Virus record (IMG/VR): IMGVR_UViG_3300044639_002247
Location: 1 to 53,398 of that record
Strand: one strand, 5' to 3'
DNA length: 53,398 nucleotides
Source: a virus
Shown: in pieces, positions 14,703 through 52,893 of the stretch
Layout of the letters: every line of letters begins with the position of its first letter
Position numbering within the stretch: the first letter of the stretch is position 1
Program-made: the position numbers and the translations under genes
The notes under the pieces: model-generated
The model's database searches: none
Seen by the model: the letters and a program-made list of their open reading frames with translations, nothing else
Told to the model about the DNA's origin: nothing

Positions 14703-14710
14703 TATTTATA
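14703..14710 (-). promoter_or_regulatory. T4-type late promoter (TATAAATA), minus strand
   Basis: Exact octamer on the minus strand, followed by GATAT and then the ATG of the 14113-14697 gene. With the T4 spacing the transcript begins at the ATG. It lies in the 21 bp between the stop of gp4 and this gene. Confidence 0.82.
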
Positions 14711-14718
14711 CTGTTTTT

Positions 14719-15174
14719 TTATGTCAATAGCTTAATTCCAAGACCTTTAATTACGTCTTCTGTCCAAATTTCAAATACCCATCCACGGTCAGCACAATAT
14801 TCTTTTGCTGCTTCCCACTTTGATATATTTTTAGCATAGGTTAGCACCTCCGTAATATACCTCTTTGTTTTTATGGCGCGGACAACTGGTTCCTGTGTTT
14901 GCTTTTTTGGTTTTATTTCAATAAGATATGTAGTTCCAGTTTTAAATGTTACTTTTAAGTCTACAAAATATCTATGGCTCTTTCCATCTGACCGGCATCG
15001 ATATGGCACAATCGTTTCTTCGCTACTCCAAGAGACAACTGCTGGGTTGTTGTCACACCATTTAAAAACCTGGCGTTCCCATGATGATCTATAGACTACA
15101 GCGGATGCGTCTCCATTATATTTTTCTCTGTGTATTACGCGATATTTACCACTATAATAATGCCGTTTTGTCAT
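14719..15174 (-). CDS. 4: gp4-like head completion protein, 151 aa
   Basis: T4 gp4 (150 aa, also called gp50/65) completes filled heads before tail joining. This protein matches in length and in the pattern YRVIHREKYNGDASAVVYRS, SSWERQVFKWCD, VSWSSEETIVPY, HRYFVDL and YLIEIKPKKQTQEP. The residues Glu33 (SSWER), Asp72 (YFVD), Glu86 and Lys88 (EIK) form a PD-(D/E)XK-like nuclease arrangement similar to the TnsA N-terminal domain. A nuclease activity is therefore plausible but not shown. It is transcribed leftwards from a promoter overlapping that of gp48. Confidence 0.85.
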   Translation of the reverse strand: MTKRHYYSGKYRVIHREKYNGDASAVVYRSSWERQVFKWCDNNPAVVSWSSEETIVPYRCRSDGKSHRYFVDLKVTFKTGTTYLIEIKPKKQTQEPVVRAIKTKRYITEVLTYAKNISKWEAAKEYCADRGWVFEIWTEDVIKGLGIKLLT

Positions 15175-15181
15175 ATAAATA
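15174..15181 (+). promoter_or_regulatory. T4-type late promoter (TATAAATA) for gp48
   Basis: Exact octamer followed by CTTAT and then the ATG at 15187 (5-bp gap). Its first base overlaps the start codon of gp4 on the other strand. Confidence 0.85.
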
Positions 15182-15187
15182 CTTATA
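15180..15187 (-). promoter_or_regulatory. Late-promoter variant (TATAAGTA) for gp4
   Basis: On the minus strand TATAAGTA (one mismatch) is followed by TTTAT and then the gp4 ATG, again a 5-bp gap. It overlaps the gp48 promoter by two bases, so the two cannot be occupied at the same time. Confidence 0.65.
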
Positions 15188-15921
15188 TGGCAACAACTTC
15201 TTTTCCAGACAACCGAGATAAAATGGCGCGGCGTCCTACTATTAGATTTTCATGTGATGGAGCTAATTCGGCTATTATCATATTGCCTATGCCAGGATCG
15301 TTGCAGTTTGGTGATGGGGCGTCATATAATAATGCCGAGTTGGGTGTTAGGGGCAACCTGGTTGCAGGCGCAGCTGCGAGTGCCCCAGGCAGCGGTGGCG
15401 ACCCTGCTTCACTAGCAAAGACGTTTGATGGAATAAAAGATGCGGGATCAAATGCTTCAGTGGCAAGTATACTGCAAGGAATTGCTAGTACAATGAATAT
15501 TGGAGAAAATGTGGCAAGTGCAATTAGTATTGGTACTGGAACAACATTAAATAAAAACATAACTACAGAATTTACTGCTACAAACACACGAGTCTTTTCG
15601 TTTGCCTTTCAATTAATTTCTACTAGTATATCAGAAACAGCAAAGATTAGAGAAATAGTAAATGCGTTTCGTTTAAATCTTTATCCAGAGGGAGATGAGT
15701 TACAATTAAAATATCCACCCAAGTGGGATATAAAGTTTCTAGCTGATGGTGGTGATATACCAGACATACCTAAAATAGGTAAAACATACTTAACCGAAGT
15801 TAGTACAACATTTAACGGCTCGGCTAATATGTGGAGGACTGATGGCTCACCGCTTGAAACGTCTATTCAATTACAATTTATGGAAACTAAAGCATACAGA
15901 CGAGACACTTTACCAAAATAA
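15187..15921 (+). CDS. 48: gp48-like baseplate tail-tube cap protein, 244 aa
   Basis: T4 gp48 sits on the hub and, with gp54, starts the tail tube. Recognisable elements are the N-terminal IIILPMPGSLQFGDGASYNN, a Gly/Ala-rich helical middle, and the C-terminal part FSFAFQLISTSISETAKIRE, LNLYPEGDELQLKYPPKWDI and IGKTYLTEVSTTFNG, typical of gp48 in cyanophage-type relatives (ypp.w.i.f). The start at 15187 is set by the late promoter 5 bp upstream; the longer in-frame ORF would run back through the gp4 start. First gene of the rightward baseplate operon gp48-gp53-gp27-gp5. Confidence 0.75.
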   Translation: MATTSFPDNRDKMARRPTIRFSCDGANSAIIILPMPGSLQFGDGASYNNAELGVRGNLVAGAAASAPGSGGDPASLAKTFDGIKDAGSNASVASILQGIASTMNIGENVASAISIGTGTTLNKNITTEFTATNTRVFSFAFQLISTSISETAKIREIVNAFRLNLYPEGDELQLKYPPKWDIKFLADGGDIPDIPKIGKTYLTEVSTTFNGSANMWRTDGSPLETSIQLQFMETKAYRRDTLPK

Positions 15922-15924
15922 ACA

Positions 15925-16980
15925 ATGTTATTTTTTTCAAAGTATCCCAAAATAAACTATGATTTATTTTCAGATGGTTCGGTATTTGAACTTACTGACA
16001 TTTCTCGTGCTATTATTCTAAATTCAAATCGTATAGGCGATGACGACACGCCATATACATACTACACTATAAATGACGGTGATAGACCAGATGTAGTTTC
16101 ACACAAGCTTTATGGTGACTCTTCATATTATTGGACTTTTTTCATATTAAATGAGTTTTTACGCGACGGTTACACCTCCTCTTGGCCGCTCTCATATCAC
16201 AATTTTATAAAAATGATAGAGCGTGAGTATAGTAGGTTTTCATCGATATCTATACTTCCGACAGTTGAACCAGAAAAAGACCTCAATGGCACTGCCACGC
16301 TTGATATATCATTTATACCACTAACTTCGCAATACGCGCCATACTTAAAATTTGCATCTGGCGATGGCAGTTATTTTTCAACATTTGTTAGGTATGATGC
16401 CAAACGCAACCAATGTATTATAAGCGATATATACAAAATTAATAAGAGTGCTGGAATTGGTAATACTATTATTTCTACACGAATTGATAATATACCTAGA
16501 GAAGATTTTGTAGAAAATACTGGCTTGTCATATAAAATAGCATGGGATGATACTGTGCGTGAACGCGGATTGTCTATTACTGACGCGAAAAATAAGAATA
16601 TTGCGCTTAAAGCAGAATGGATTGATACTATATATTCTAATATCAAAAAATATGATCTAATTGGCATAGGGGAACATATCGCTGCAGCAAGTTCAAAGGA
16701 AGAATATATCGCGTCTAAGAAACTTGCAGTTGCAAAAAAGGAATTTAGGTGGAGTGATTACGCAAATGCGGCATACCAGTATCGTTCTCTCGATGACACC
16801 ATTTTATCATCATATGATGTATTAACAAATCCAAATATAATTAATCCACTAATAACATCATTTTATGATTATGAGACGTCAATTAATGACTCAAAACGTA
16901 TGATAAAAACAATACGTCCAGAATTTATAATTAACTTTTCTGATAAATATTTTGAAGAATTAAACGATACGTTGCTATAA
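15925..16980 (+). CDS. 53: gp53 baseplate wedge protein, 351 aa
   Basis: The N-terminal half has the gp53 signature: MLFFSKYPKINYDLF, then YTYYTINDGDRPDVVSHKLY and GDSSYYWTFFILNEFLRDGY, with the turn SSWPLSYHNF. T4 gp53 (196 aa) links neighbouring wedges. The protein here is longer, with about 150 extra C-terminal residues containing a helical region (KKEFRWSDYANAAYQYRSLD). The gene starts 3 bp after the gp48 stop and ends 2 bp before the hub gene, so it belongs to the same operon. Confidence 0.87.
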   Translation: MLFFSKYPKINYDLFSDGSVFELTDISRAIILNSNRIGDDDTPYTYYTINDGDRPDVVSHKLYGDSSYYWTFFILNEFLRDGYTSSWPLSYHNFIKMIEREYSRFSSISILPTVEPEKDLNGTATLDISFIPLTSQYAPYLKFASGDGSYFSTFVRYDAKRNQCIISDIYKINKSAGIGNTIISTRIDNIPREDFVENTGLSYKIAWDDTVRERGLSITDAKNKNIALKAEWIDTIYSNIKKYDLIGIGEHIAAASSKEEYIASKKLAVAKKEFRWSDYANAAYQYRSLDDTILSSYDVLTNPNIINPLITSFYDYETSINDSKRMIKTIRPEFIINFSDKYFEELNDTLL

Positions 16981-16982
16981 TT

Positions 16983-18890
16983 ATGTCAACAAATTCAAAT
17001 GCGCCAACACATACTAAAAATACTCCTAAATCGGGTTATTCTGGACAGGGCGAGGCGAGGCCACCAGGTGCGTTTAATGTGGTAAAACTAGACTTAATTA
17101 GTTCGACTGGAGTAAGAAAAGATATAAGAAGCCTAGTTGAATCATTTACAATTACTTCGGAATTATTTTCTCCAGTAGTAACATTTTCTGCAACAATACG
17201 CGATAACCAAAAATTATTTGAGCCGGCGGCTGGAGAAGCATTTCAAATATGTGGCCAAGAAAATATTGAAATAGAAATTGATCCAATTCACCCAGTTGAC
17301 CTTGGCTCGACCCCAATTAAACATACATTCTCAGTAAAGGAGTATCCAACACTTACACGCACTTTAGACTTTCCAGACGTCCAAATTTATACTGTTTTGG
17401 CAATTTCTGAATTTGCATATCGTAGTAGTCTAATGAATATATGTAGACCACTTTTTGAGGATCAACCTTTAGAAAAAAATATAGAAAGTATTTTTAAAGA
17501 TGATTTGGGACAACGGGAATTTAATGTTAGAGGAAAAGTTGACAATTATTTTGACGGAATTATAAACATTCAGCGACCGTTGAAGGCGGCGGATTGGTTG
17601 AGATCGCGATCATTTGATGGTAACTCTCCATTTTTCTTACATAGCGATACTACCAAGCCGGGGGTAATATTCATGTCGTCATGGAAGTATTTGTCTGATA
17701 AGTCTCAAAACGGCTCAAAGGTAAAATATAGTTTTAGACCGTTTTCTACTAAAGAACCAGGCACGCCCGGTCATACTTTTGAGGAGCGAACCCGAATATT
17801 AAGTATGACGTCTGCAATTAAACTTGATCGCTTGAAGTCTGCAAATTCTGGAGCATATGCCAGTCGATATAATATTACCGATTTTGCGTCAAAGTCATTT
17901 TATATTTCAGATTTTATAAGCGCGACACCAGACCCAAAATCTGATTGGATTCCACGAAAATATAAAATTACAAAAAGAGACGGAACTATTGCGGCTGAAC
18001 CTATGAATAGTATACCAAGTTCAGCTGTTGTAAGTGCACACACTAATAGCACTCCTACCGGCTCTGTCTATAACTCTATTACGACGGGTATAGAAAAACT
18101 ACCATATACTAGGGCATTACTAGCCAGGTTAAATGAATCAACACATGAGATTGTTGTGTATGGTCGCTCTTTACTGCAAGCAGGGGCAATAATAGAATTA
18201 AAAGTATTGAAACCCAAAGCGGGAAATGACGCGGCAGCAAAACCACAATCAGAACCACAAATTGACCCACTTGCTTCTGGAAAATATATTATACTTGTCG
18301 TGTCATCAATTTTTTCAGAAGGAATATATACAAATAAACTAAAACTTGCTAAAATGGTTCCCAGTTTGATTGGCGAAATTATGGAACCAACCGGAGGGTT
18401 GGCCGCAAATAAAAGCGGAATAGAAGGCATTACTAGCACCATAAACCCGCCACCTAGCGCTGACGCAAATAACGACGGTACTATCAGTGACTCTGAACGC
18501 GATAATTATGTTAAGAGTTTAGGCAATACTACACGTGGTGGAACTACTGGGGTTAAAATAACCAGTTATGGTCAAGCGAATGACAGCACTGGAGATAGCA
18601 ACACGCAGGCGCAGAGGGGATTTGCCAACAACCTACTCAGGGAGGGATCTGTTGCCCTTTCCCCGGATATTTACAACCAATATAAACCACCAATCGGGTC
18701 GGCAGTGTATGTTAATGGTCAACATGTCGGCTATTATGAAGATAGAACTCCAGCTAGTTATAATGGACAAAATTTTGGCCAGACTATTGACGTATATGAC
18801 CCCAATAATCGCTTAGGTTCTGTTCTAAAAAATGCGGGTGATGCACAGCTCACTTTCGGACCTGCGCGGCCACAAATCTCAAACCCATGA
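16983..18890 (+). CDS. 27: gp27-like baseplate hub protein with C-terminal EF-hand, 635 aa
   Basis: The region from about residue 30 to 470 has the layout of gp27/VgrG-type hubs: FNVVKLDLISSTG, then SFTITSELFSPVVTFSATIR, a long middle with RPLKAADWLRSRSFDGNSPF and FEERTRILSMTSAIKLDR, and a closing ASGKYIILVVSSIFSEGIYT with NKLKLAKMVPSL. T4 gp27 is 391 aa. The extra C-terminus contains a canonical EF-hand loop DANNDGTISDSE (residues 494-505) and a Gly/Asn-rich tail. It follows gp53 and precedes the gp5-type genes, its expected partners in the central spike. Its stop overlaps the ATG of a 30-residue frame (ATGA). Confidence 0.8.
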   Translation: MSTNSNAPTHTKNTPKSGYSGQGEARPPGAFNVVKLDLISSTGVRKDIRSLVESFTITSELFSPVVTFSATIRDNQKLFEPAAGEAFQICGQENIEIEIDPIHPVDLGSTPIKHTFSVKEYPTLTRTLDFPDVQIYTVLAISEFAYRSSLMNICRPLFEDQPLEKNIESIFKDDLGQREFNVRGKVDNYFDGIINIQRPLKAADWLRSRSFDGNSPFFLHSDTTKPGVIFMSSWKYLSDKSQNGSKVKYSFRPFSTKEPGTPGHTFEERTRILSMTSAIKLDRLKSANSGAYASRYNITDFASKSFYISDFISATPDPKSDWIPRKYKITKRDGTIAAEPMNSIPSSAVVSAHTNSTPTGSVYNSITTGIEKLPYTRALLARLNESTHEIVVYGRSLLQAGAIIELKVLKPKAGNDAAAKPQSEPQIDPLASGKYIILVVSSIFSEGIYTNKLKLAKMVPSLIGEIMEPTGGLAANKSGIEGITSTINPPPSADANNDGTISDSERDNYVKSLGNTTRGGTTGVKITSYGQANDSTGDSNTQAQRGFANNLLREGSVALSPDIYNQYKPPIGSAVYVNGQHVGYYEDRTPASYNGQNFGQTIDVYDPNNRLGSVLKNAGDAQLTFGPARPQISNP

Positions 18891-22958: not shown

Positions 22959-22966
22959 TATAAATA
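22959..22966 (+). promoter_or_regulatory. T4-type late promoter (TATAAATA) for gp25-gp6
   Basis: Exact octamer followed by GAAT and the ATG of gp25 (4-bp gap), the shortest gap in the set. It begins 8 bp after the previous stop. Confidence 0.85.
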
Positions 22967-22970: not shown

Positions 22971-23402
22971 ATGAGCCGTAACTTGTCAGACTATAATGAC
23001 TCCAGGGCAACAGTTGTCGCCAGAAAAAATTTGTATTCAGATATTGATAATAGTTTTAACGTGCATCCAATTTATAATGATATATTACCAATAGTTGACA
23101 TTGACTCGATAAAACAAAGTTTAAAAAACTTATTACTAACTAATCAATATGACCGCTGTTTTCAACCAAACATATACTCTGATGTATCAGCACTATTGTT
23201 TGAAAATGCTGATATATTTTCAGAATTAGAATTAAAAGAAAAAATAGAAAACGTAATTGATATATATGAACCGCGAATAAGTAACTATGAAGTTACAGTT
23301 TCCGATGACTCTGACAGAAATGCATATAAAGTTTTTATTAAATTCGAAACATCATATGATTCATCTTCTGAAATAACAATATATTTAACTCGTATACGAT
23401 AA
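22971..23402 (+). CDS. 25: gp25 baseplate wedge protein, 143 aa
   Basis: Belongs to the gp25/GpW lysozyme-like wedge family (T4 gp25, 132 aa). It has VARKNLYSDIDNSFNVHPIY near the N-terminus, DSIKQSLKNLLLTNQYDRCF (the conserved i..si.nLl.T..gER.F region, with DR instead of ER), QPNIYSDVSALLFEN, and a closing IDIYEPRISNYEVTV. It anchors sheath polymerisation on the wedge together with gp53 and gp6. Its stop shares one base with the gp6 start (TAATG). Confidence 0.92.
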   Translation: MSRNLSDYNDSRATVVARKNLYSDIDNSFNVHPIYNDILPIVDIDSIKQSLKNLLLTNQYDRCFQPNIYSDVSALLFENADIFSELELKEKIENVIDIYEPRISNYEVTVSDDSDRNAYKVFIKFETSYDSSSEITIYLTRIR

Positions 23403-28233: not shown

Positions 28234-28241
28234 TATAAATA
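28234..28241 (+). promoter_or_regulatory. T4-type late promoter (TATAAATA) for the first fibre gene
   Basis: Exact octamer followed by ATAGTAT and the ATG at 28249 (7-bp gap). Located in the 21-bp space after the previous stop. Confidence 0.83.
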
Positions 28242-28248: not shown

Positions 28249-30093
28249 ATGTCAGACATAAAATTTTCACAACTCACGCAAATAACAAACGCGTCACCAT
28301 TAGATCTCGTGCCAATAATCGACGTCTCTAATCCGCTTATGTCAGAGAACGGAAGCAATGCCATTGTTAGTGTTGGCGACCTCGCGTCTTCGTTTTTTAA
28401 TGGTCTTGGAAATGGATCAATAAGTAGCGCACAAATACAGACGAGTCCAGAATTCTTTGGCAACGTAAAGTTACCAATCACCACATCTATTGGGCCAATA
28501 ACTGGAACTGAGATTGGTTTCTTAACTGGTTTGCGTAATAACATACAATATCAGTTTGACAACCTAGTTTATTATGGCACAACAATTTTTGGACCAGGAA
28601 CAACTAGTGCTGCGCCACTTAAAATTCTAGCTGGTACAAATACAATAACACCAAGTCCTGGAAATATTGAGTTTGATGGCACAAGTCTGTATTATACAAA
28701 CAATAATCCAACCCCAGCACGTCAGACGCTTGCGACCACAACCTATGTAGATAGTATAATAGACGGCGCGCCCGGGGTTTTAAACACACTTAATGAATTG
28801 GCGTTTGCTCTTAATGATGATGCAAACTATGCAACAACTATTACTACAGCGTTATCTGGTAAAGAGCCGGCAATAACAGCTGGAACGACTGCTCAATATT
28901 GGCGTGGTGATAAAACGTGGCAGACTTTAAATAAAGCAAGTGTTGATTTGAGCAATGTTACCAATGAAAGCAAGGCTACAATGTTTAGTAACCCCACTTT
29001 CTCTGGAACAACAACACTGCCAGCCGGAACAACTACAGTTGCACCATTAAAATTAACGGCTGGAACAAATTTAACTTCTCCAGTTGCTGGTAGTGTTGAA
29101 TTTGATGGCACTGAAATATACATTACAAATTCAGTTGGCTCTAGAAAAACATTAACCTACACAGATCACACCCATACTACTGCAACAATAAGTGTAGCTG
29201 GGTTTATGTCAGCGGCTGATAAGGTTAGGCTTGACGGAATAGCAGCTGGTGCTGAAGTAAATGTTCAAGCTGATTGGAACGCGTCATCTGGTGATGCTGC
29301 AATCTTAAATAAACCCGATAATGCAACAATAAGTGTAGCTGGGTTTATGTCAGCGACTGATAAAAGTCGTTTAGACGACGCTTCTGGCGTTAATGGATTG
29401 GTTAAGTGTAATGGCTCGGGAGACTTTTCAGTTGCGTCTGCTGGCACAGACTATGCAGCTACTTCACATACGCATGGCAGCATAACCAATGATGGTAAAC
29501 TTGGAACGACAACCAATTTGCCACTTATAACTACCACGGGTGGTACAATATCTACTGGATCATTTGGAACTGCAGCAAACACATTTTGTGCTGGAAATGA
29601 CACTCGATTAAGTGATGCTCGTACTCCTGCTTCACATACGCATGGCAGCATAACCAATGATGGTAAACTTGGAACGACAACCAATTTGCCACTTATAACT
29701 ACCACGGGTGGTACAATATCTACTGGATCATTTGGCACAACTGCCAATACATTTTGCGCTGGAAATGACACTCGTATTGATAATTTGCATACTGTCGTTA
29801 ATACTTCAGCGGCAACACTCACTATAACTGAAGCGGATAACAATGAATATATACGTTGCTCTGCAGCAGGCGGAACTGCAATAACATTAAATGGAGCTGG
29901 AGCATGGACAGACGGTATGACGGTAACAGTTCGACGAGTTGGAGGAACGTCACCTGCAGGTGCATTAACATTAACTACTTCAAACGCAACAATAAATGAT
30001 AATGATATTGCAAATATTTTAGCTGGAGACACGTTTGCACTAAAATGCGTTGACATTAGCAGTCCTACAAATAAGGTATTTGATTTTATTTAA
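28249..30093 (+). CDS. Modular tail fibre protein, 614 aa
   Basis: The N-terminus IKFSQLTQITNASPLDLVPI followed by IDVSNPL is a virion-anchor pattern shared with the fibres at 31316 and 32702. The body has typical fibre repeats (TISVAGFMSAADKVRLDGIA, twice) and a 56-residue duplication containing SHTHGSITNDGKLGTTTNLP. The C-terminus (LTITEADNNEYIRCSAAGGT, VTVRRVGGTSPAGALTL) looks like a small beta-structured tip domain of the kind seen at fibre ends. It probably binds host surface glycans or another fibre segment. First of three fibre genes with their own or shared late promoters. Confidence 0.8.
   Translation: MSDIKFSQLTQITNASPLDLVPIIDVSNPLMSENGSNAIVSVGDLASSFFNGLGNGSISSAQIQTSPEFFGNVKLPITTSIGPITGTEIGFLTGLRNNIQYQFDNLVYYGTTIFGPGTTSAAPLKILAGTNTITPSPGNIEFDGTSLYYTNNNPTPARQTLATTTYVDSIIDGAPGVLNTLNELAFALNDDANYATTITTALSGKEPAITAGTTAQYWRGDKTWQTLNKASVDLSNVTNESKATMFSNPTFSGTTTLPAGTTTVAPLKLTAGTNLTSPVAGSVEFDGTEIYITNSVGSRKTLTYTDHTHTTATISVAGFMSAADKVRLDGIAAGAEVNVQADWNASSGDAAILNKPDNATISVAGFMSATDKSRLDDASGVNGLVKCNGSGDFSVASAGTDYAATSHTHGSITNDGKLGTTTNLPLITTTGGTISTGSFGTAANTFCAGNDTRLSDARTPASHTHGSITNDGKLGTTTNLPLITTTGGTISTGSFGTTANTFCAGNDTRIDNLHTVVNTSAATLTITEADNNEYIRCSAAGGTAITLNGAGAWTDGMTVTVRRVGGTSPAGALTLTTSNATINDNDIANILAGDTFALKCVDISSPTNKVFDFI
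29462..29735 (+). repeat. Exact 106-bp direct repeat inside a fibre gene
   Basis: The segment 29462-29567 recurs without a mismatch at 29630-29735 (period 168 bp, 56 codons). It encodes HTHGSITNDGKLGTTTNLPL. Perfect identity at silent sites indicates a recent duplication or ongoing homogenisation. Confidence 0.9.
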
Positions 30094-31301: not shown

Positions 31302-31309
31302 TATAAATA
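31302..31309 (+). promoter_or_regulatory. T4-type late promoter (TATAAATA)
   Basis: Exact octamer followed by TAGCAT and the ATG at 31316 (6-bp gap), in the 19 bp between two adhesin genes. Confidence 0.83.
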
Positions 31310-31315: not shown

Positions 31316-32686
31316 ATGGCCACAATAAAGATTTCAGCGTTACCAGCAATTACTAGTAATAGCGTTACTAGTAATGATCTTTTTCATGTTATTGATGTAG
31401 ACGCCACGAGTCAAACATATCCTACTGGCACAAACAAAAAGGTAACTGCGTCGATCTTGGCAGAACGCCTTGCGGCACTTAATACTACTACAATACCTCC
31501 AGTAGTACAGACCGAATTAGACTTAAAGTTATCAATCGCTGACTTTAATGGCGTCGGGCTTAAAATTGCAGCTCCAGTTGTTGCTGCTACTATTGCGCCA
31601 GTAACACTTACTGGTCTGACTGCAATCTTTGCTAATGCCATTATTGACGGAGTGACTCTTGTAGCTGGAGATCGTCTACTTGTAAAAAACCAAAGTACCA
31701 CGTCAGAAAATGGTATCTATATAATTTCAACTACACCGACAATACCGGTTCGAGCAACTGACTTTAATGAACCAACTGAAATTAATAATGGCTTTGTACT
31801 TGTAAATGGAGGCACAACTCAGAACGGCAGCGGCTGGGCAGTAACAAGCACAGTCACAGTCTCTCCATCTGGAGTAGGGACCGACCCAATCGTTTTTACT
31901 CAATTTGCATCTGGTCTTTCCGGCCTTTCAAAGTCGTCTGTAGGACTGGGCAATGTTGATAACACGAGCGATATTAGTAAGCCGCTGTCGACAGCAACGA
32001 TCACCGCATTAGCTGGCAAGCAAGGCCTGATAGGCGGCGCAGCATCAACAATAACAACTAGTAACTTAGGTGCTAGTCGAGCATTAGTTTCAGATGTCAC
32101 CGGTAAAGTGGCAGCATCAGCGACAGTAACGAGTGCTCAGTTGGGCTACTTAACTGATGTCACGAGTAACATTCAAGCACAACTAGATAACAAAGCTCCT
32201 CTTGCATCTCCAACATTTACTGGGAATGTTGCACTACCAAGTACAACTACTGTTGGTGGTACTGTAATTGGCACAATTCCAGCTGGAGCAGTTATGGCTT
32301 TTGCCATGAATTCCGCTCCTGCCGGGTGGTTAGTTGCTGATGGAACTGCAGTGTCTCGCGCCACTTACGCGAATTTATTTACGGCGATTGGAACATTATA
32401 TCCCGGAGGAGATGGAGCAACAACATTTGCTGTGCCAGACTTGCGTGGCTATTTTGTTCGCGGAACAGGAACAAATAGTGATGGGACGGTATCTGGAACA
32501 TTTGCAGCAAAGCAAGCTGACGAGTTTAAGTCTCACACTCATACTGTTGATAACATTGTATTAGTTCCTGGTTATCAAGGAAGCGGTGGTGGACTCGTTG
32601 GAAGAAGTTCTGCAAATTCTGGCAGCACAGGAGGAACTGAAACTCGCCCTAGAAACATCGCAATGCTTTATTGCATTAAATTTTAA
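31316..32686 (+). CDS. Tail fibre with C-terminal tail-collar domain, 456 aa
   Basis: N-terminal anchor IKISALPAITSNSVTSNDLF followed by HVIDVDA. Residues 85-195 carry a domain I recall from phage fibres (IIDGVTLVAGDRLLVKNQST, ENGIYIISTTPTIPVRATDF). The C-terminal 130 residues are a tail-collar domain (Pfam PF07484): PAGAVMAFAMNSAPAGWLVA, YANLFTAIGTLYPGGDGATT, FAVPDLRGYFVRGTGTNSDG, then SHTHTVDN and ETRPRNIAMLYCIKF. In T4 gp12 and related fibres this domain is the receptor-binding or trimerising tip, with His-x-His metal sites; SHTH may have that role. Confidence 0.88.
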   Translation: MATIKISALPAITSNSVTSNDLFHVIDVDATSQTYPTGTNKKVTASILAERLAALNTTTIPPVVQTELDLKLSIADFNGVGLKIAAPVVAATIAPVTLTGLTAIFANAIIDGVTLVAGDRLLVKNQSTTSENGIYIISTTPTIPVRATDFNEPTEINNGFVLVNGGTTQNGSGWAVTSTVTVSPSGVGTDPIVFTQFASGLSGLSKSSVGLGNVDNTSDISKPLSTATITALAGKQGLIGGAASTITTSNLGASRALVSDVTGKVAASATVTSAQLGYLTDVTSNIQAQLDNKAPLASPTFTGNVALPSTTTVGGTVIGTIPAGAVMAFAMNSAPAGWLVADGTAVSRATYANLFTAIGTLYPGGDGATTFAVPDLRGYFVRGTGTNSDGTVSGTFAAKQADEFKSHTHTVDNIVLVPGYQGSGGGLVGRSSANSGSTGGTETRPRNIAMLYCIKF

Positions 32687-32688: not shown

Positions 32689-32696
32689 TATAAATA
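32689..32696 (+). promoter_or_regulatory. T4-type late promoter (TATAAATA)
   Basis: Exact octamer followed by ATCTT and the ATG at 32702 (5-bp gap). It begins two bases after the previous stop, which leaves no room for a separate leader. Confidence 0.84.
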
Positions 32697-32701: not shown

Positions 32702-35700
32702 ATGCCAGTTAAAATTACATCACTAGCCCCAATTGATACAATTGCTCAAAATGATCTTATACATATCATTGACGTCGGCAATAAGACCATGGGCGATAGT
32801 GGCACAAATACACATATAACTGCCGGAGCCGCGGCAAATCAATTGGGTGCCTTGCTAACTGCTGTTCCAGCAGTTATACAGACTGAAATTGATGAAAAGG
32901 CTAACATCAACAATCCTATATTTACAGGAAATGTAACTCTTCCAAGTACGACATCGATTGGCGAAGTTACTGCTGGTGAAATCGCATTTGTACATGACGT
33001 TACGAGTCCAATTCAAACTCAACTAGACAGTAAAGTACCAGCATTCAATTCTGCTTTTACCGGAACAATTACTTCATCAAATAACGCTGCCCAGTCATTA
33101 ACTTCAGCTGCATTACATTGCACGGGAACGACTGGTGCCATATTAATGGATAGTGCTGGCCACAAAAGAATCTCATGGAATGACGGCGACGGTAACTTTA
33201 ACATACGTGCTGGACATTATTATAATGGTACAGCCGTTGTCTATGCGAAGCAGTCAAATGAAAATAATGGAGGAGCAGCAGCCATAGCATTTGGTTCAGA
33301 CGGCGCCGACGGCAACATCACGATGAGTGCTGCACCGATTGGTGTGTCTGGCACAACAGTAGCCTGGGCAAACAACTTTATACTAAATAAAGACGCTGCA
33401 TATACAGATAAAAACTTTGGTATTGGAACAACGTCTCCAGTGGATACGTTAGACGCCAACGGATCAGTAGTATTACGTGGTAACTCTGCTGGAGCCATAA
33501 TGTTTGCTCCTAAATTTGGATGGGCGCCGTACGGCACTAACTATGATAGGTTTGAAATCTATGTAGATCCAAATGCGCAAATTACAACTATTGGAAACTC
33601 ACATGGTGGCACCGGGGTCGCCAGAGCACTTGGTCTTAAAACATCTGGCGCCAACAGAATGACAATTATGGCCGATGGCAAAGTCGGTATTGGAACAAGC
33701 GCTCCTACTACTGCGCTTGAAGTAAATGGTACAATAACTGCAACTGCATTTAGCGGATCATTCGTTGGTCAGTTTTCAGGAAATATAGCCACCTCTACGC
33801 TTGCGGCAAAGGCAAGTACCCTTGCTGCTGGCGGTGGTAACGGCACCGCAATGACATTTAACTGGGTAGCGGGGAATCCAACAAATGGACAACCATTGTG
33901 GTTATGGGGCGGCAGTGACGCCGCAAACATGTACGTCTATAATCCAAGCAACTTTAGTGTAGCAACTGCCACCAGTGCGACGACTGCCACCAGTGCGGGG
34001 AGTTTCACTGGTTCGCTGGCAGGAGATGTGACCGGCACCCAAGGTGCGACGACAATCTCTGCGGGGACGGTGACGGGTAAGGCGCTCACTGGCTATGTTT
34101 CTGGAGCGGGGACGATTGCTGCGACCGACACGATTTTAGGCGCAATCAACAAACTCAATGGCAATGTCGGGCTAAAGGCGAATATTGCCAGTCCAACCTT
34201 ATCAGGTTTAACGTTGAGTGATTCAAGCATAGTTTTTGAAGGATCGTCTGCAGATGAATTTGAAACTACTCTGACAGTCACTAATCCCACCGCAGATCGC
34301 ACTATAACTCTACCAAATGTTACAGGAACAATAGTCACAAGTGGTGACACCGGTAGTGTGACATCTACAATGATTTTAGATGGCACAATTAATAATGCTG
34401 ACATAAGCACATCCGCGGCAATTGCCGACACCAAACTAGCTACAATAAGCACAAGCGGAAAGGTTGCTAACAGCGCCACAACCGCAACAAGTAACAATAA
34501 TCCCAATACAATAGTTACTCGTGATGCCTCTGGAAACTTTAGTGCTGGTACGATTACTGGTGACGTCACTGGAAATGTGACTGGCTCGTCTGGTTATGCG
34601 ACAACTGCTGGCTCTTGTACAGGAAATGCTGCAACTGCTAGTTATGCAACAGCTGCAGGATCTACAATAAACGTACGTGGAGTATCTAAATTTCCTGAAA
34701 AAAGCAATTCTGGTGCGCTGCTGTTAGGATATGGTTTTACCTTTATTGATTCAGATAACGAAATACGAGCTATTGGTTCTTCGACCGCGGCGAATGCATT
34801 GCCTGCAACTTTCGATCAATATGCTCCAGCTGGAGTATATGGCCCGCTATTTGAAAATATTATACCTGACAAACTTTATGTAAATCAGCAGTCAGCATTT
34901 GTGATAACGACGACTGGCAAAGTATTTGCGGCGGGTGTTAATACTTCCGGCGGGTTGGGCGTCGCCGTCGTCGGTGAAACTAAGACTTTACTTGATGTTA
35001 AGTTACCGGACACTGAGGTTTGTGTGAAAATTGCTCTTAGTGCAGAACGAAATACTCAAAATACATACTTCTTAACAGCATCTGGAAAAGTATATGTCTC
35101 GGGAGATAATACTCGCGGGCAACTGGGATTTGCCGGTCGGTCGACCTCGTATGATGCAACCGCTCCCGAATTAACAATTGGTCCGGGGAGTCCAAGTCAA
35201 ACCACGGCCGTTACAGATATTCAAACAGTTGGCAGTGGTAGCTCCCACACTGCGATAGCATTGTTAAGTAACGGTACAGTATGGGTTTGTGGATACGGCG
35301 ACTACGGACAAATGGGAAATGGTACCTCTAATGCGGTCAATACCACGTGGACACAGGTTAGGACGACTGGTACTACCCTTGGTAATATTAAAAAAATATA
35401 TGCTGCTGGCGCCGATTCGAAAACTTCGCTTTATGCACTAGATACGAATAATAGACTATGGGGGTGGGGCAATAGCTCATGGGGTCAATTAGCGCAAAAT
35501 AATACAAACGAGCAAACGTATGCAGTGAAAGTATCAGATGGCGTTGACAAGTTTTGGGCATTTGGTGCTTCTTGTTTTATAAAGAGACTACCGGGTGCGG
35601 AGCAGGCTGGCATACCTGGCCTCAACTACAGCATTGGACAAATACATTCATGGGGATACAACGGCTACGGCCAATTAGGCATAGGGACTACGACCAACCG

Positions 35701-36088
35701 CACGGTCGTGGGAGACTTTGAATTCCCGTTGAAAAATATTAATATTGAAAATATGTATGGATCGCAAGACGACGGCACGCCCGGCCTTCATGTTTTTGCC
35801 AAACCGCTTAGTTCAAATAACATTTATTCAGCTGGACGCGGGGAGGATGGAGAATTGGGTATAAATCAAGTTACAGATTCAACTTTTTTTGGCAGAGCTA
35901 TTTTCCCAGTAGGTTCTCAAATTATCGATATTATATGTTCGTTTTATACTGGGGTTGGCAGTGAAACGTGGGTTCGTACTGCAGATAACAAACTATATCA
36001 CACTGGCTATAGGAATTGGCTACATGGACCCAACGGCAGCAATAAATCTGCAGTATTTAGTAATGTTACTAATTTAGTGTGCGGCTAA
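32702..36088 (+). CDS. Long tail fibre with RCC1-like beta-propeller tip, 1128 aa
   Basis: Anchor VKITSLAPIDTIAQNDLIHI followed by IDVGNK. A fibre body contains IGIGTT-type repeats (NFGIGTTSPVDTLDANGSVV, KVGIGTSAPTTALEVNGTIT). From about residue 670 to the end come RCC1-type repeats: TKVFAAGVNTSGGLG-like blades, TASGKVYVSGDNTRGQLGFA, LSNGTVWVCGYGDYGQMGNG, NRLWGWGNSSWGQLAQNNTN, IHSWGYNGYGQLGIGTTTNR, IYSAGRGEDGELGINQVTDS. The propeller is complete here, unlike the related one at 43626. RCC1 repeats in a phage fibre most likely serve as an adhesin tip for protein or glycan receptors. Confidence 0.85.
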   Translation: MPVKITSLAPIDTIAQNDLIHIIDVGNKTMGDSGTNTHITAGAAANQLGALLTAVPAVIQTEIDEKANINNPIFTGNVTLPSTTSIGEVTAGEIAFVHDVTSPIQTQLDSKVPAFNSAFTGTITSSNNAAQSLTSAALHCTGTTGAILMDSAGHKRISWNDGDGNFNIRAGHYYNGTAVVYAKQSNENNGGAAAIAFGSDGADGNITMSAAPIGVSGTTVAWANNFILNKDAAYTDKNFGIGTTSPVDTLDANGSVVLRGNSAGAIMFAPKFGWAPYGTNYDRFEIYVDPNAQITTIGNSHGGTGVARALGLKTSGANRMTIMADGKVGIGTSAPTTALEVNGTITATAFSGSFVGQFSGNIATSTLAAKASTLAAGGGNGTAMTFNWVAGNPTNGQPLWLWGGSDAANMYVYNPSNFSVATATSATTATSAGSFTGSLAGDVTGTQGATTISAGTVTGKALTGYVSGAGTIAATDTILGAINKLNGNVGLKANIASPTLSGLTLSDSSIVFEGSSADEFETTLTVTNPTADRTITLPNVTGTIVTSGDTGSVTSTMILDGTINNADISTSAAIADTKLATISTSGKVANSATTATSNNNPNTIVTRDASGNFSAGTITGDVTGNVTGSSGYATTAGSCTGNAATASYATAAGSTINVRGVSKFPEKSNSGALLLGYGFTFIDSDNEIRAIGSSTAANALPATFDQYAPAGVYGPLFENIIPDKLYVNQQSAFVITTTGKVFAAGVNTSGGLGVAVVGETKTLLDVKLPDTEVCVKIALSAERNTQNTYFLTASGKVYVSGDNTRGQLGFAGRSTSYDATAPELTIGPGSPSQTTAVTDIQTVGSGSSHTAIALLSNGTVWVCGYGDYGQMGNGTSNAVNTTWTQVRTTGTTLGNIKKIYAAGADSKTSLYALDTNNRLWGWGNSSWGQLAQNNTNEQTYAVKVSDGVDKFWAFGASCFIKRLPGAEQAGIPGLNYSIGQIHSWGYNGYGQLGIGTTTNRTVVGDFEFPLKNINIENMYGSQDDGTPGLHVFAKPLSSNNIYSAGRGEDGELGINQVTDSTFFGRAIFPVGSQIIDIICSFYTGVGSETWVRTADNKLYHTGYRNWLHGPNGSNKSAVFSNVTNLVCG

Positions 36089-36188: not shown

Positions 36189-36196
36189 TATAAATA
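36189..36196 (+). promoter_or_regulatory. T4-type late promoter (TATAAATA) for gp8
   Basis: Exact octamer, but 19 bp from the ATG at 36216, so this transcript would have a leader of about 14 bases, the exception in the set. The 127-bp space before gp8 (36089-36215) holds nothing else that I can identify. Confidence 0.75.
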
Positions 36197-36215: not shown

Positions 36216-37598
36216 ATGGCAGCAATCGTAACAGACTCTTTTCGTAGAAACAATGCGCAACTCTTTTTAGGGGATGTAGCGTCTAGCAGCACAAACTATT
36301 ATGTAGGACTCGGAAAATCTGATAAGTGGGTTCTTGATGAAGAAGCTTTACTTCCTGGTGACATTCCTCTTTCACTTGGAATAGAAGGTGACGACTCAGA
36401 TATAAAATCAAATCTAGTAACATTACTTAAGATTAATGATACTCATACGGAACTCGTAATTCCACATATAAAATGGAAAACTGGAGCATATTATAAAGCT
36501 TATAGCCCATATGATCTAGATTGTTTTTATCCGGGTGTTCTCGAAGGTGATGCAGAAATAAATCCATGCTATGCAGTTGTAAGTGGTCGCATCTACCTTT
36601 GCCTTCAACGCGGTGTAGGAGTTACAGCTGGTATTCCAGTAGCAACTGACTATCGCGCAACAATATATGCCAATGACGGCTATGTTTGGATGCTTGTTGA
36701 TAATGTATCAACTGCGTTATCAAAATTAATTACTGACCAGTTTATTAACATAACTTCTGGAGTTGTACCACAAACCATTGCCCCATCTATTGAGGCCAGT
36801 GGAGGAGGGTTACTATACGGTTTTAGTGTGATGTCGGGTGGCTTAGGTTATGGCTCACTCAACGAGGTTACATTTGTTGCTCAATACTCTGATGGCAGTG
36901 AGCTTGAAATTGAGTGTGGAGCGATAGCAGATGCAACTACTGGAGTGCTTAAAAATGTGTTACTACCACCTGATTGGTCATACACCGCAGTCGGTTCAAA
37001 ACGAATAGTAAGCGGTTACTTTAAAATAGATTCAACTGGTTCAGGCGCTGTTATAGTTCCTCACATCGCGCCACTACTCGGCTTTGGTTATGAACCTTCA
37101 AAAATATTACCATCGTGGTTTATAGGAATTGCAGTTGATGCAGTTGATAGTATTTCAAGTGACGGGTTCTATATCCCGTATCGTCAAATTTCGGTTTTAA
37201 GAAATGTTGAATATACTGAAAATAGTAGTCCAGACACTCTTGGTGCACTTCGTTACATTACAATCCCAACTCCCCCATCTGCTGGAATTTCAGTAGGAGA
37301 CAAGTTAACGTTTGGAACAACTGGTATAACCGCATATTTTGATTCATATTCTAGTGTTGAGATTGCTGGAGTAACTTCACGCCGAATATACTTTCATCAA
37401 AATTCAACAACTGGGTTTGGAGCTATTCCAAGTACTGGTACAGTTACTGACTCTAAAGGTACGTCTGTGCAATATAGTGCAGTAAGTAATAACGAATATA
37501 TTCCTCACAGTGGTAAAGTAGTATTTACTGAAAATCGTAAACCGATTAACCGCCAAAGCGGACAAACTGAAGAAATTAAGATTATTATACAATTCTAA
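36216..37598 (+). CDS. 8: gp8-like baseplate wedge protein, 460 aa
   Basis: Matches the gp8 pattern of cyanophage-type T4 relatives: MAAIVTDSFRRNNAQLFLGD, SSTNYYVGLGKSDKWVLDEE, a middle strand VIPHIKWKTGAYYKAYSPYD, YAVVSGRIYLCLQRGVGV and NDGYVWMLVDNVSTALSKLI. T4 gp8 is 334 aa; longer versions are usual in this branch. gp8 joins gp7 and gp10 in the wedge. The stop shares one base with the next start (TAATG). Confidence 0.78.
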   Translation: MAAIVTDSFRRNNAQLFLGDVASSSTNYYVGLGKSDKWVLDEEALLPGDIPLSLGIEGDDSDIKSNLVTLLKINDTHTELVIPHIKWKTGAYYKAYSPYDLDCFYPGVLEGDAEINPCYAVVSGRIYLCLQRGVGVTAGIPVATDYRATIYANDGYVWMLVDNVSTALSKLITDQFINITSGVVPQTIAPSIEASGGGLLYGFSVMSGGLGYGSLNEVTFVAQYSDGSELEIECGAIADATTGVLKNVLLPPDWSYTAVGSKRIVSGYFKIDSTGSGAVIVPHIAPLLGFGYEPSKILPSWFIGIAVDAVDSISSDGFYIPYRQISVLRNVEYTENSSPDTLGALRYITIPTPPSAGISVGDKLTFGTTGITAYFDSYSSVEIAGVTSRRIYFHQNSTTGFGAIPSTGTVTDSKGTSVQYSAVSNNEYIPHSGKVVFTENRKPINRQSGQTEEIKIIIQF

Positions 37599-43389: not shown

Positions 43390-43620
43390 ATGGCAACTCG
43401 TAAAAAAATAAAAGTAGAAGACAATCCTTCATTGGAGAGAGATTCCTTTTCAGGCGCAATTTTAAACTCGGACATAACTGCATATACATCAGCGGTGCGT
43501 CGTAAAAAACGTATGCGCAGTCAAGAGCAGCTAATTGCTGAGTTAAGTAGAAAAGTTGGAGAATTATTGCTTTGGAAAGAAGAAATAATCAAATTATTAG
43601 CAAAAAAAGAGAATAAATAA
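43390..43620 (+). CDS. Small coiled-coil virion-associated protein, 76 aa
   Basis: Basic start (MATRKKIKVEDNPSLERDSF), then SGAILNSDITAYTSAVRRKK and a heptad-like C-terminal helix (EQLIAELSRKVGELLLWKEE). I recall similar small proteins (ERDs.SgAIlntD) beside large structural genes in cyanophage-type T4 relatives, without a known function. A trimeric coiled coil for fibre attachment is plausible. It starts 5 bp after the giant gene and contains in its last codons the AATAAATA element of the next gene. Confidence 0.72.
   Translation: MATRKKIKVEDNPSLERDSFSGAILNSDITAYTSAVRRKKRMRSQEQLIAELSRKVGELLLWKEEIIKLLAKKENK
43612..43619 (+). promoter_or_regulatory. Late-promoter variant (AATAAATA)
   Basis: One mismatch to the octamer, overlapping the stop of the coiled-coil gene, followed by AACATA and the ATG at 43626 (6-bp gap). 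The spacing agrees with the exact octamers. Confidence 0.6.
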
Positions 43621-49320: not shown

Positions 49321-49321
49321 T

Positions 49322-49544: not shown

Positions 49545-49565
49545 ATTTTCAATATATATAGTAAT

Positions 49566-50657
49566 ATGCCAAGTCGATCAATCACATTGTTACCGCAAAA
49601 TGGTAATGCATCAATCACTACAATTAATTGTGGAAGTAGTTTTTCAAGACTTGGAGGAGTTGTAGACGTTTCAGCTTTTCTGAATTTAACAAATTTTACT
49701 TGTAATAATAATAATATAACTGAGATTTCGGGTTATTCTAATAACAGCAACTTAATAACTTTATCATTTGTTGATAATTTACTTACTGAAAGTTTGCCGT
49801 CTTTAAGTGGGATGACCAATTTACAAGAATTTAAATATAATCGAAATCAGATTAGTGGAAGCATTCCCCCCAGTTTAAGTGACTTGGCAGCATTACGAAT
49901 TTTCCAAGGTTTTAATAATGCGCATACTGGAAGCATCCCCAGTTTAAGTAGTCTTGTTAATCTTCGAATCTTCCAGTGTGATTTAAATAATCTAACTGGC
50001 ACTATTCCAGCTCTTAATGCAAATACAGAGCTTACTAGTTTTTCTTGTAATTCTCAAAGAGGCGCAACAAAACTTACTGGGTCTATTCCAAGCTTGGCCG
50101 GGTTGACGAATTTACTAAATTTCTATTGTTATAACAATCAACTGTCTGACTTTGCAGGTGGTTCGGTATCAAATAAGTTAGGCGATTTTAAAGCTCAAAA
50201 TAATCTATTACCAGCATCAGCGGTAGACGCGATATTATCAGCCTTTGTTACCGCCAATAAAACAACTGGAACAAGGATACTAAGCTTACATGGTAATGGA
50301 AATGCATCTCCGACTAGTGTAGGGGTAATCAAAACAACATTGAGTGGAACTGCTTTTTCACGATCTGACACAACTGTTACAGTCAACTCTACGGCACATG
50401 GATATGTCACAGGTGATTATGTAACAGTTAAAGATATAGCAGAAACTGATTTCCAAGGAACATTTGCAATAACTCGTATAAACGACAATACGTTTCAATA
50501 TACAACACTTACAACTGGGGCATTAACTGGATCTGGAACCGCAACGTTGCGAAAAACATCCACTGGCAATACTAGCGGATTTAGAAGTTATCAAAATCTT
50601 GCTCTTGTATCGCGAACGGGCGGTCCATGGGACATAAACATTAATTTTCCGGCATAA
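49566..50657 (+). CDS. Leucine-rich-repeat adhesin, 363 aa
   Basis: Residues 15-225 are LRRs of the plant-like and bacterial type: LTNFTCNNNNITEISGYSNN, TNLQEFKYNRNQISGSIPPS, LVNLRIFQCDLNNLTGTIPA, LTNLLNFYCYNNQLSDFAGG. Residues 265-335 contain VTVNSTAHGYVTGDYVTVKD and ITRINDNTFQYTTLTTGALT, a pattern known as the FCCH-like fold in phage and bacterial surface proteins. The end (GGPWDININFPA) is short. Such proteins occur in tail-fibre regions of marine T4-like phages and probably bind host surface proteins or glycans. No signal peptide, so it is a virion part rather than a secreted protein. Confidence 0.85.
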   Translation: MPSRSITLLPQNGNASITTINCGSSFSRLGGVVDVSAFLNLTNFTCNNNNITEISGYSNNSNLITLSFVDNLLTESLPSLSGMTNLQEFKYNRNQISGSIPPSLSDLAALRIFQGFNNAHTGSIPSLSSLVNLRIFQCDLNNLTGTIPALNANTELTSFSCNSQRGATKLTGSIPSLAGLTNLLNFYCYNNQLSDFAGGSVSNKLGDFKAQNNLLPASAVDAILSAFVTANKTTGTRILSLHGNGNASPTSVGVIKTTLSGTAFSRSDTTVTVNSTAHGYVTGDYVTVKDIAETDFQGTFAITRINDNTFQYTTLTTGALTGSGTATLRKTSTGNTSGFRSYQNLALVSRTGGPWDININFPA

Positions 50658-50660
50658 CTT

Positions 50661-50909
50661 ATGATAAAAACTTACAAACAGGCAGTAATAACAGTTGATG
50701 AAAATGTATGGGCATTTGTATATGATACAGATTCTAAGAAAATACTAATGGAACCTCAACAGTGTTCTGGAACATATACATGTTCTCAAACTCTTGTGAT
50801 TGCAGATAGTTTAGAAGAGTGTGAAGAATATATTGAAACTAATGCTATAACAAACAGTTTATATGAAGTTATGCCAGCTGATGAAGAATATATTGAACCT
50901 GAGTCTTAA
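50661..50909 (+). CDS. Small paralogous protein A, 82 aa
   Basis: MIKTYKQAVITVDENVWAFV, then FCSGTYTCSQ-like sequence (actual QCSGTYTCSQTLVIADSLEE) and CEEYIETNAI. It is clearly related to the 51017 gene: W.f.Y......l.eP....G.Y.C...LV.AD.LEEC..fI. Located 3 bp after the LRR gene. Small proteins beside fibre genes often are fibre assembly chaperones; here that is inference from position only. Confidence 0.72.
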   Translation: MIKTYKQAVITVDENVWAFVYDTDSKKILMEPQQCSGTYTCSQTLVIADSLEECEEYIETNAITNSLYEVMPADEEYIEPES

Positions 50910-50915
50910 TAAATA
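50908..50915 (+). promoter_or_regulatory. Late-promoter variant (AATAAATA)
   Basis: One mismatch to the octamer, overlapping the stop of paralogue A, followed by GTAAT and an ATG at 50921 (5-bp gap). It would drive the short frame 50921-50995 and the downstream paralogue B. Confidence 0.55.
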
Positions 50916-50920
50916 GTAAT

Positions 50921-50995
50921 ATGTCAGTTATTACACTACGACCGGTTGGCTCTAGTACACTCTACACCGCTAAGGAGGCGGACCGTGTAGCGTAA
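50921..50995 (+). CDS. Possible micro-ORF over a structured element, 24 aa
   Basis: A 24-codon frame (MSVITLRPVGSSTLYTAKEA, then DRVA) begins exactly where a late transcript from the AATAAATA at 50908 would start. It covers the left part of the hairpin element and stops inside it. It could be a leader peptide that controls paralogue B, or a chance frame. Confidence 0.35.
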   Translation: MSVITLRPVGSSTLYTAKEADRVA

Positions 50996-51008
50996 CAATA
51001 GACCAACC
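50944..51008 (+). other. Candidate structured RNA element between two paralogues
   Basis: Three nested pairings are visible. The outer stem pairs GGTTGG-TCTA (50944-50954, one bulged C) with TAGACCAACC (50999-51008), 10 bp. The middle stem pairs CTACAC (50962-50967) with GTGTAG (50985-50990). The inner stem pairs CGC (50968-50970, with part of the preceding C) with GCG (50978-50980). The apical loop contains TAAGGAG, part of AAGGAGG, the best Shine-Dalgarno-like sequence I saw. No T-run follows, so it is not a simple terminator. It ends 8 bp before the ATG of paralogue B. Confidence 0.5.
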
Positions 51009-51016
51009 ATCATGGC

Positions 51017-51253
51017 ATGATTACCGAGCATAAATTAACTATAATTGATGTAACAGCTGACAAGTGGTTGTTATTCTATAATGAGGAAACAAATATTATG
51101 TTATGTGAACCATTTCAGGGCAGCGGGTCGTATATATGTGCATCTGTTTTAGTAGTGGCGGACACGCTTGAAGAATGTAATGCATTTATCGCGCAGAAAA
51201 AAATAGCAAACCCGTTTAGGTTTGTACAAGATAACACACCAGAATCTGAATAA
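51017..51253 (+). CDS. Small paralogous protein B, 78 aa
   Basis: MITEHKLTIIDVTADKWLLF, then NIMLCEPFQGSGSYICASVL and VVADTLEECNAFIAQKKIAN. Shares the framework of the 50661 protein (about one residue in three by eye, with conserved W, EP, GSY.C and LEEC). It follows the structured element and precedes the S74 fibre. A role as a fibre-specific chaperone or accessory is possible; nothing in the sequence proves it. The in-frame upstream ATG (51012) is out of phase and stops at once, so 51017 is the start. Confidence 0.72.
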   Translation: MITEHKLTIIDVTADKWLLFYNEETNIMLCEPFQGSGSYICASVLVVADTLEECNAFIAQKKIANPFRFVQDNTPESE

Positions 51254-51260
51254 GATCATT

Positions 51261-51268
51261 TATAAATA
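51261..51268 (+). promoter_or_regulatory. T4-type late promoter (TATAAATA) for the S74 fibre
   Basis: Exact octamer followed by AGTAT and the ATG at 51274 (5-bp gap), located 8 bp after the previous stop. Confidence 0.85.
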
Positions 51269-51273
51269 AGTAT

Positions 51274-52893
51274 ATGCCAATTCAACCAATTAATTTAGGG
51301 CCGTATGTATTAAACTCTCCAACCGAGGCAGAGAAAGGGCATATACGCGAGAGTTTGAATCTTGGATCGTCTGCTTTATTAGACGGTGCCTTCGTTGATA
51401 GTAACAGAATTGTTTTCACCGACCCAAATAATAATCAGCGTACAATTACTCTTGATAAAACTTTGCTAACTTCGCCGGTAGCTGATCGCTTACGGACACC
51501 TCGTGTTTTAGCAGTGACTGGTCACGTTACGACGACCAGTCCAATCCCAACCTTCGATGGTACTGCTAACGTTAATATTCCAGTTACAATCAATGATGGA
51601 GTAATTAGTGAATCAAAATTAGCAGCTAATGCAGTAGTTGGCGCAAAGATTAAAAACGGTACAATAACTCCAGACAAATTATCAGCCGGAGCTCCTACAT
51701 GGACGTCAAACTCAATTAATTTACCTCCTGGAATTGATCTTGGATACGATATAACTGTAGCTGGTGATAGTTATATAGACTTTCATTCGTCTTTCCCAAT
51801 AGTTGAATATGATGCTCGTATATGGCGCAAATCTGGAGTCAATGGTGCACTTGATATACTCAATATTGGAACTGGAAACATAAATATTGGTGGTGGACTC
51901 TCTGTAGAACAATCAAATACAGTTACCTCTACGCGTCAGCGTATTGGAGCACTGGAAATTATTGACAATCAAATTAATGGTACACATGCAAGTTATGTTG
52001 AGCTTGCACTTAACTATGAAAATAGCGATAGTACATTTACAAATTTCTTAAATACTACGGTCTATAATGGCAAAAGAGAAATGGTTGCAAAGTTTTTTGG
52101 AGAGACAAAAACACTCGAGACATCCGGCCCATGTCGTTCTATAACAAATAATCAGACTAATCAAGCATCTGCCGGACTTGAATCACGCACAGCTTCTGCT
52201 GGAAATGCTTTGATTGCGTTAAATGCAAACTCATCTGCAACTCTGCTACGTCATGTTCGTAACGGATCTGGAGTTGAAATACGCAATTCAGCTGACACTG
52301 AGTATGCTCCGCTGAAAGCTTCTAGTATTACATCAATAGGTAATACTATTGTAAACAATAACAGTCCTACTTTAATCTTGCAAGACACCGATGGTCGTAG
52401 CGGAATGGTGCAAGTAAATGCTAATGAATTTTCTGTACTGCGAGGAAGCGGCACAAATTCTATAGACTCGACTGCTTTTAACAACCTTTGGCCACTCGTA
52501 ATTGACTTAGAAACTAATGCCTCTGCATTTGGTGGGGATGTGACTGTTAACGGCACACTACGCTCAACTGGAGATATTATTGCTTATTCGACATCAGATA
52601 AAAGTCTTAAAACTAATATACAGCCGATTAGTCAGCCACTAAGTAAATTACAAAAAATAAATGGAGTAACATTTGACTGGGATACGTCTAAGCAAGATAC
52701 CTTTTCCGGTTCTGACATTGGTGTCCTTGCCCAAGAAATTGAAGAGATTTTACCAGATGCAGTTTGTACCCGAGAAGATGGATACAAAGCAGTTAAGTAT
52801 GAAAAAATAATTCCACTACTAATTGAATCTGTAAAAGAACTTACGGCGTTGGTAGAAACTCTTCAAACAAAAATAGCAAATTTAGAAAATTAA
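51274..52893 (+). CDS. Tail fibre with C-terminal S74 self-cleaving chaperone, 539 aa
   Basis: N-terminal fibre region (IQPINLGPYVLNSPTEAEKG) and a body with ISESKLAANAVVGAKIKNGT and TPDKLSAG. The C-terminal 100 residues are the intramolecular chaperone domain of peptidase family S74 (Pfam PF13884): STSDKSLKTNIQPI with the catalytic pair Ser441 and Lys446, INGVTFDWDT, DIGVLAQEIEEILPDAV, YKAVKYEKIIPLLIESVKEL and a closing coiled coil. The domain helps the fibre trimerise and then cuts itself off before Ser441, releasing about 99 residues. It is a receptor-binding fibre with its own late promoter. Confidence 0.9.
   Translation: MPIQPINLGPYVLNSPTEAEKGHIRESLNLGSSALLDGAFVDSNRIVFTDPNNNQRTITLDKTLLTSPVADRLRTPRVLAVTGHVTTTSPIPTFDGTANVNIPVTINDGVISESKLAANAVVGAKIKNGTITPDKLSAGAPTWTSNSINLPPGIDLGYDITVAGDSYIDFHSSFPIVEYDARIWRKSGVNGALDILNIGTGNINIGGGLSVEQSNTVTSTRQRIGALEIIDNQINGTHASYVELALNYENSDSTFTNFLNTTVYNGKREMVAKFFGETKTLETSGPCRSITNNQTNQASAGLESRTASAGNALIALNANSSATLLRHVRNGSGVEIRNSADTEYAPLKASSITSIGNTIVNNNSPTLILQDTDGRSGMVQVNANEFSVLRGSGTNSIDSTAFNNLWPLVIDLETNASAFGGDVTVNGTLRSTGDIIAYSTSDKSLKTNIQPISQPLSKLQKINGVTFDWDTSKQDTFSGSDIGVLAQEIEEILPDAVCTREDGYKAVKYEKIIPLLIESVKELTALVETLQTKIANLEN

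Follow-up and report, generated by a model that had tools for sequence, protein, structure and literature searches.

Late promoter octamers placed 4-7 nt before start codons point to probable leaderless late mRNAs in an uncultured T4-related phage

The DNA analysed here (the window) is the 53,398-nt virus record IMGVR_UViG_3300044639_002247 of IMG/VR, a 53 kb record of a T4-related phage. It carries the octamer TATAAATA, identical to that of T4 late promoters, close to the start codons of late-type genes, namely those for gp2, a gp48-like tail tube cap, gp25 and tail-fibre-like proteins (Table 1). Judged by gp6 identity, the nearest named phages are Melnitz (38%), Mosig and HTVC008M (both 35%), followed by cyanophages (~33%). 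A near-identity search of phage genomes with the window gave no match.

Eight exact copies of TATAAATA were found in the window, while 7.6 are expected by chance, so the placement of the octamers and not their number carries the claim. Seven of the eight are followed, after 4-7 nt, by the ATG of an open reading frame (ORF) of 143-1128 codons. Of 571 octamers with the same letters in another order, 21 (3.7%) had an ATG 3-8 nt downstream; against this background, the location of seven of eight exact octamers at 3-8 nt from an ORF ATG has a binomial P of ~7e-10. The initial annotation had listed these seven octamers by the genes that they precede, with their gaps (5, 5, 4, 7, 6, 5 and 5 nt), as well as an exception, gp8, with 19 nt; all of this proved correct. 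The gp8 octamer is at 36189 and its ATG at 36216. The variant octamers that it named at 15180(-), 43612 and 50908 are present with gaps of 5, 6 and 5 nt, but the ATG at 50921, behind the last of them, opens a mere 24-codon ORF. Two further variants were found at 49553 (TATATATA, gap 5) and 13484(-) (AATAAATA, gap 8).

Table 1. Late promoter octamers, the genes they precede, and related features of the window.
Feature	Position	Strand	Details
Host-type (sigma70) promoter, predicted near-leaderless non-late gene	6304-6345	+	-10 TATAAT 7 nt before ATG 6343
gp33, late promoter coactivator	7831-8067	+	phrog_254, E 4e-23
Variant AATAAATA of baseplate hub gene	13484-13491	-	8 nt before ATG 13475
gp2, DNA end protector, predicted leaderless late gene	14113-14697	-	phrog_429, E 2e-53
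gp2 late promoter TATAAATA	14703-14710	-	5 nt before ATG 14697
gp4, head closure, predicted leaderless	14719-15174	-	phrog_218, E 3e-56; variant octamer, gap 5
gp48 late promoter TATAAATA	15174-15181	+	gap 5 to ATG 15187
gp4 variant octamer TATAAGTA	15180-15187	-	gap 5
gp48-like baseplate tail tube cap, predicted leaderless	15187-15921	+	phrog_230; gap 5
gp25 late promoter TATAAATA	22959-22966	+	4 nt before ATG 22971
gp25 baseplate wedge	22971-23402	+	phrog_261
TATAAATA of tail fibre-like gene 28249-30093	28234-28241	+	7 nt before ATG 28249
TATAAATA of tail collar fibre-like gene 31316-32686	31302-31309	+	6 nt before ATG 31316
TATAAATA of RCC1-repeat protein gene 32702-36088	32689-32696	+	5 nt before ATG 32702
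TATAAATA of gp8, exception	36189-36196	+	19 nt before ATG 36216
Variant AATAAATA	43612-43619	+	6 nt before ATG 43626
Variant TATATATA	49553-49560	+	5 nt before ATG 49566
Variant AATAAATA	50908-50915	+	5 nt before ATG 50921, 24-codon ORF only
TATAAATA of tail fibre gene 51274-52893	51261-51268	+	5 nt before ATG 51274

In T4, for which 50 late promoter sites have been listed, the octamer spans positions -13 to -6, with A in place of T at -13 at nine sites (PMC2988020). With the octamer in this position, a gap of 5 nt sets +1 on the A of the ATG. The gaps of 4-7 nt thus correspond to predicted leaders of 0-2 nt, where gaps of 6 and 7 leave 1-2 nt. The T4 octamers themselves lie 14-32 nt before the ATG, which gives room for a Shine-Dalgarno (SD) sequence in the leader, whereas none fits into the short gaps of the window, as noted initially. 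An SD was scored as GGAG, GAGG or AGGA at -20 to -4, and genes were called in the same way in all genomes. It was found in 0 of 39 genes of the window, compared with 56% in T4 (late region examined), 52% in Melnitz and 43% in HTVC008M. Among loci with at least 54% gp6 identity, 5.2% of 251 genes have an SD, as opposed to 38% of 366 genes in loci below 45%. In the gp6 tree, the SD-less loci form one group (100/100), which corresponds to one change; by this tree the SD-less group is of single origin. Another fixed motif in the role of the SD was sought and rejected, as the 5-mers enriched before start codons are AU-rich pieces of promoters.

The arrangement was then compared in related contigs with 58-87% gp6 identity, one of them 174 kb long (G004, 69% gp6 identity). 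Octamer-to-ATG distances counted in close relatives peak at 5-7 nt, unlike those of T4 and of cyanophage P-HM2 (21-26 nt). No other 8-mer in the clade is as strongly enriched 4-7 nt ahead of an ORF ATG as TATAAATA (50 occurrences against 1.29 expected). Of the 112 copies of TATAAATA, 51 lie near an ORF start, whereas for permutations of the same letters the proportion is 4.2%. This specificity argues against the possibility that the octamers are AU-rich enhancers of mRNA translation, such as binding sites of ribosomal protein S1, and not promoters. Every start in the clade is AU-rich and G-poor upstream, which speaks for such enhancers, but the octamer also matches the known late promoter, gp33, gp55 and gp45 are encoded, and the octamer occurs on both strands at divergent gene heads. 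We therefore regard the enhancer explanation as very improbable.

Orthologous starts in the relatives keep both the octamer and the gap, while the DNA 5' of the octamer varies. The gap of gp2 is 5 nt in most orthologous loci and 5-12 nt in all of them, including relatives with 39-54% identity, and the gap of 6 nt at the variant at 43612 is also retained. The genes of gp4 and gp48 are divergent, and their start codons are 12 bp apart. The two octamers overlap there (15174-15187) and each runs into the start codon of the opposite gene; because of this overlap, a leader of either gene would have to begin inside the other. The divergent arrangement is retained in relatives. The only gene with an exact octamer and a long gap is gp8, with 17-18 nt in close relatives. 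The conservation of TATAAATACATTAAATA at gp8 in close relatives indicates that something in its leader of 17-19 nt may be kept on purpose.

The start codons behind the octamer in the clade are ATG in 51 cases, GTG in one and TTG in none; in E. coli, leaderless initiation favours AUG (PMC9031893). It could be argued that these codons are misassigned, and that the true starts lie downstream and have ordinary leaders. The starts were indeed called by ORF only, and the variant at 50908 points to a 24-codon ORF. However, the similarity of the proteins to their relatives begins at these very methionines, five ATGs adjacent to octamers in HTVC008M (6280, 7562, 18916(-) of gp2, 31132 of gp25 and 49760) are annotated starts, and no SD was seen near the sites. 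Misassignment can thus be given hardly any weight. A start of gp25 farther upstream is excluded by an in-frame TAG just 5' of the ATG at 22971.

The proteins expected to serve such promoters are also encoded. The coactivator gp33, noted initially at 7831, was verified by its profile match (Table 1). Genes for gp55 and gp45 were not found in the window, which is a genome fragment, but the 174 kb relative encodes gp55, gp45 and gp33, as T4 does. Its gp55 and gp45 are 41% and 45% identical to those of HTVC008M, and its gp33 is 88% identical to that of the window.

We consider it likely that the octamers are late promoters producing leaderless or near-leaderless mRNAs. They would be read by the host RNA polymerase in complex with gp55 and gp33 of the phage, with the gp45 clamp as activator. 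Fixed at 4-7 nt before the start codon, they would let transcription begin at the AUG or 1-2 nt before it, and the ribosome, probably as the 70S particle, would bind the 5'-terminal AUG directly. The downstream genes of the same message would be reached by termination-reinitiation. The initial annotation had placed the 5' end of the mRNA exactly at the AUG. The geometry, the conserved gaps, the octamer specificity, the use of AUG and the missing SD argue for this on sequence grounds, although the predicted leaders of 0-2 nt are not strictly zero.

The genes without an octamer agree with such a scheme. Most of those in the late region have their start codon at -1 to +5 nt from the preceding stop, a spacing that would fit termination-reinitiation inside operons. 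Of the seven genes that an exact octamer precedes by 4-7 nt, six lie 15-21 nt from the previous stop on the same strand, just the room that a promoter takes; the remaining one, gp48, is the first gene of a divergent operon.

Several observations weigh against leaderless initiation as the whole explanation. No convincing terminators were found between the genes in the 14-33 kb region, so that transcripts reading through several genes, with SD-less AUGs inside them, are probably made as well. At least half of the octamers of the relatives lie farther off or have no ATG within 60 nt, and the gap of 4 nt at gp25 requires transcription to begin 1 nt nearer to the octamer than is normal in T4. Finally, U is present at -1 at a frequency of 0.61-0.71 in the window and its four closest relatives, compared with 0.12-0.50 in more distant phages, and is favoured in every class of genes (61-83%), which hints that some initiation may use sequence 5' of the AUG. 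Some of these data would also suit a different explanation, in which the octamers are real late promoters that contribute little to translation, most late protein is made from long read-through messages by SD-independent initiation or coupling at internal AUGs, and the adjacency of octamer and ATG merely reflects a compact genome. Besides the lack of terminators and the general preference for U at -1, it could draw on the late genes without octamers, which likewise lack an SD and abut the preceding stop. On the other hand, coupling looks given up where octamer-headed genes stand away from the previous stop, the divergent gp4 and gp48 have no same-strand upstream gene near enough for it, and the AUG-only usage and the conserved gaps would be left in need of a reason. 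We find this explanation unlikely.

Known systems resemble the proposed leaderless late promoters in part. Marine cyanomyoviruses (S-PM2, Syn9 and P-HM2) share with the window phage homologous late genes and a late motif, in their case NATAAATA (PMC2984593), but the pattern TATAAATA-N4-7-ATG is missing from the whole genomes of S-PM2, P-HM2, Syn9, P-SSM2 and S-RIM44. The same whole-genome search returned seven matches in HTVC008M, three in Mosig and three in Melnitz. As in the window, TATAAATA stands 5 nt before the ATG of gp2 and gp25 in pelagiphage HTVC008M and of gp2 in Methylophilales phage Melnitz. Unlike the window, these two phages and the Pelagibacter phage Mosig have an SD on 30-52% of genes, and they mix short octamer gaps with gaps of 16-57 nt. 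The gap of 5 nt at gp2 and gp25 recurs in numerous distant loci, and several of these have SDs at other places. The simplest history would be that gp2 and gp25 became leaderless first and that the clade of the window then spread the design. Leaderless phage mRNAs are known mostly as isolated examples, such as that of lambda cI. In the open-licence literature, we found no report that T4-like phages or cyanophages make late transcripts without a leader, though a subscription paper may exist. In a survey of pelagimyophages, the prediction of late promoters was unsuccessful (PMC7029224). Among bacteria, the TA-led leaderless genes of Actinobacteria and Deinococcus-Thermus have a -10-type element ~12 bp before the start codon (PMC3160421). 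They likewise combine a promoter element close to the start codon with the lack of an SD, but their element is the sigma70 box of the host. In the phages studied here, the element is for the most part a late promoter of the phage, which has a sigma factor of its own and is activated by a clamp.

The clade also has sigma70-like promoters (TTTACA or TGTACA, 17 nt, TATAAT), which fall into two sets. In the first, the -10 box lies 5-9 nt before the ATG, often at 5-7 nt (6343 in the window; L090-L098), so that some non-late genes look leaderless too and the design is not confined to late promoters. In the second, the ATG is 18-28 nt off and a conserved GTAA(C/G)C(A)A directly follows the predicted +1. 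Promoters that carry this element, TATAATnnnnnnGTAA[CG]C and then ATG, are located in the window at 2194-2261, 3281-3346 and 5010-5079, and also in L090-L098. The element has three matches in the window, 12 in G004 and 0-1 in the more distant phages tested, and it often holds AUGUAA, a start-stop pair. Elsewhere in the window, we noted a single tRNA-Arg (TCT) gene at 2611-2685, an 86-aa protein at 241-501 that has a lipoprotein-like signal (MKLISICFLACCLTSC) and may be a spanin or surface lipoprotein, and a strong terminator-like hairpin 3' of gp32 at 9690-9721 (gggggataga...tctatccccc).

The initial annotation had left it between the host ribosome and a phage factor to accept leaderless messages. 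For the latter, no candidate emerged, as neither bS21 nor IF3 was found in the clade. The SD-using phages HTVC008M, Mosig and Melnitz encode bS21 (NC_020484, MT647606 and MZ577097); a search of SD-less clade contigs (G000, G002-G004 and G009-G011) did not reveal it, though one of these, G004, is not known to be complete. In a control set, bS21 was also missing from Corynebacterium, Thermus and Deinobacterium, which belong to groups rich in leaderless genes (PMC3160421). As a clue to the host, this shared absence is suggestive only. WhiB, an actinophage marker, is absent from the clade contigs. For genes that might have been borrowed from a host (IMPDH, ThyX and UDP-galactopyranose mutase), the matches were distant or mixed, and MW202828, the best match of ThyX, is a podovirus and not a relative.

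Tentatively, the clade may have switched its translation start once: it would have dropped SD and bS21, brought its late promoters and many host-type ones so close to the ATG that a leader is lost, and relied on stop-start coupling elsewhere. Such a switch could be an adaptation to a new, mainly SD-less host, perhaps one without bS21, e.g., an actinobacterium, though we would not yet favour this scenario. The data suggest that a group of uncultured T4-related phages depends on a host that translates leaderless messages. As the 5-nt gap is also present at gp2 and gp25 of the cultured HTVC008M, the trait can be tested there. If the explanation is true, leaderless messages would be the source of many structural proteins in a T4-related phage, via one of the best-studied promoter systems of phages. 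Promoter position and translation mode could then shift together genome-wide, and hosts whose translation does without SD could be recognised by a mark in the sequence.

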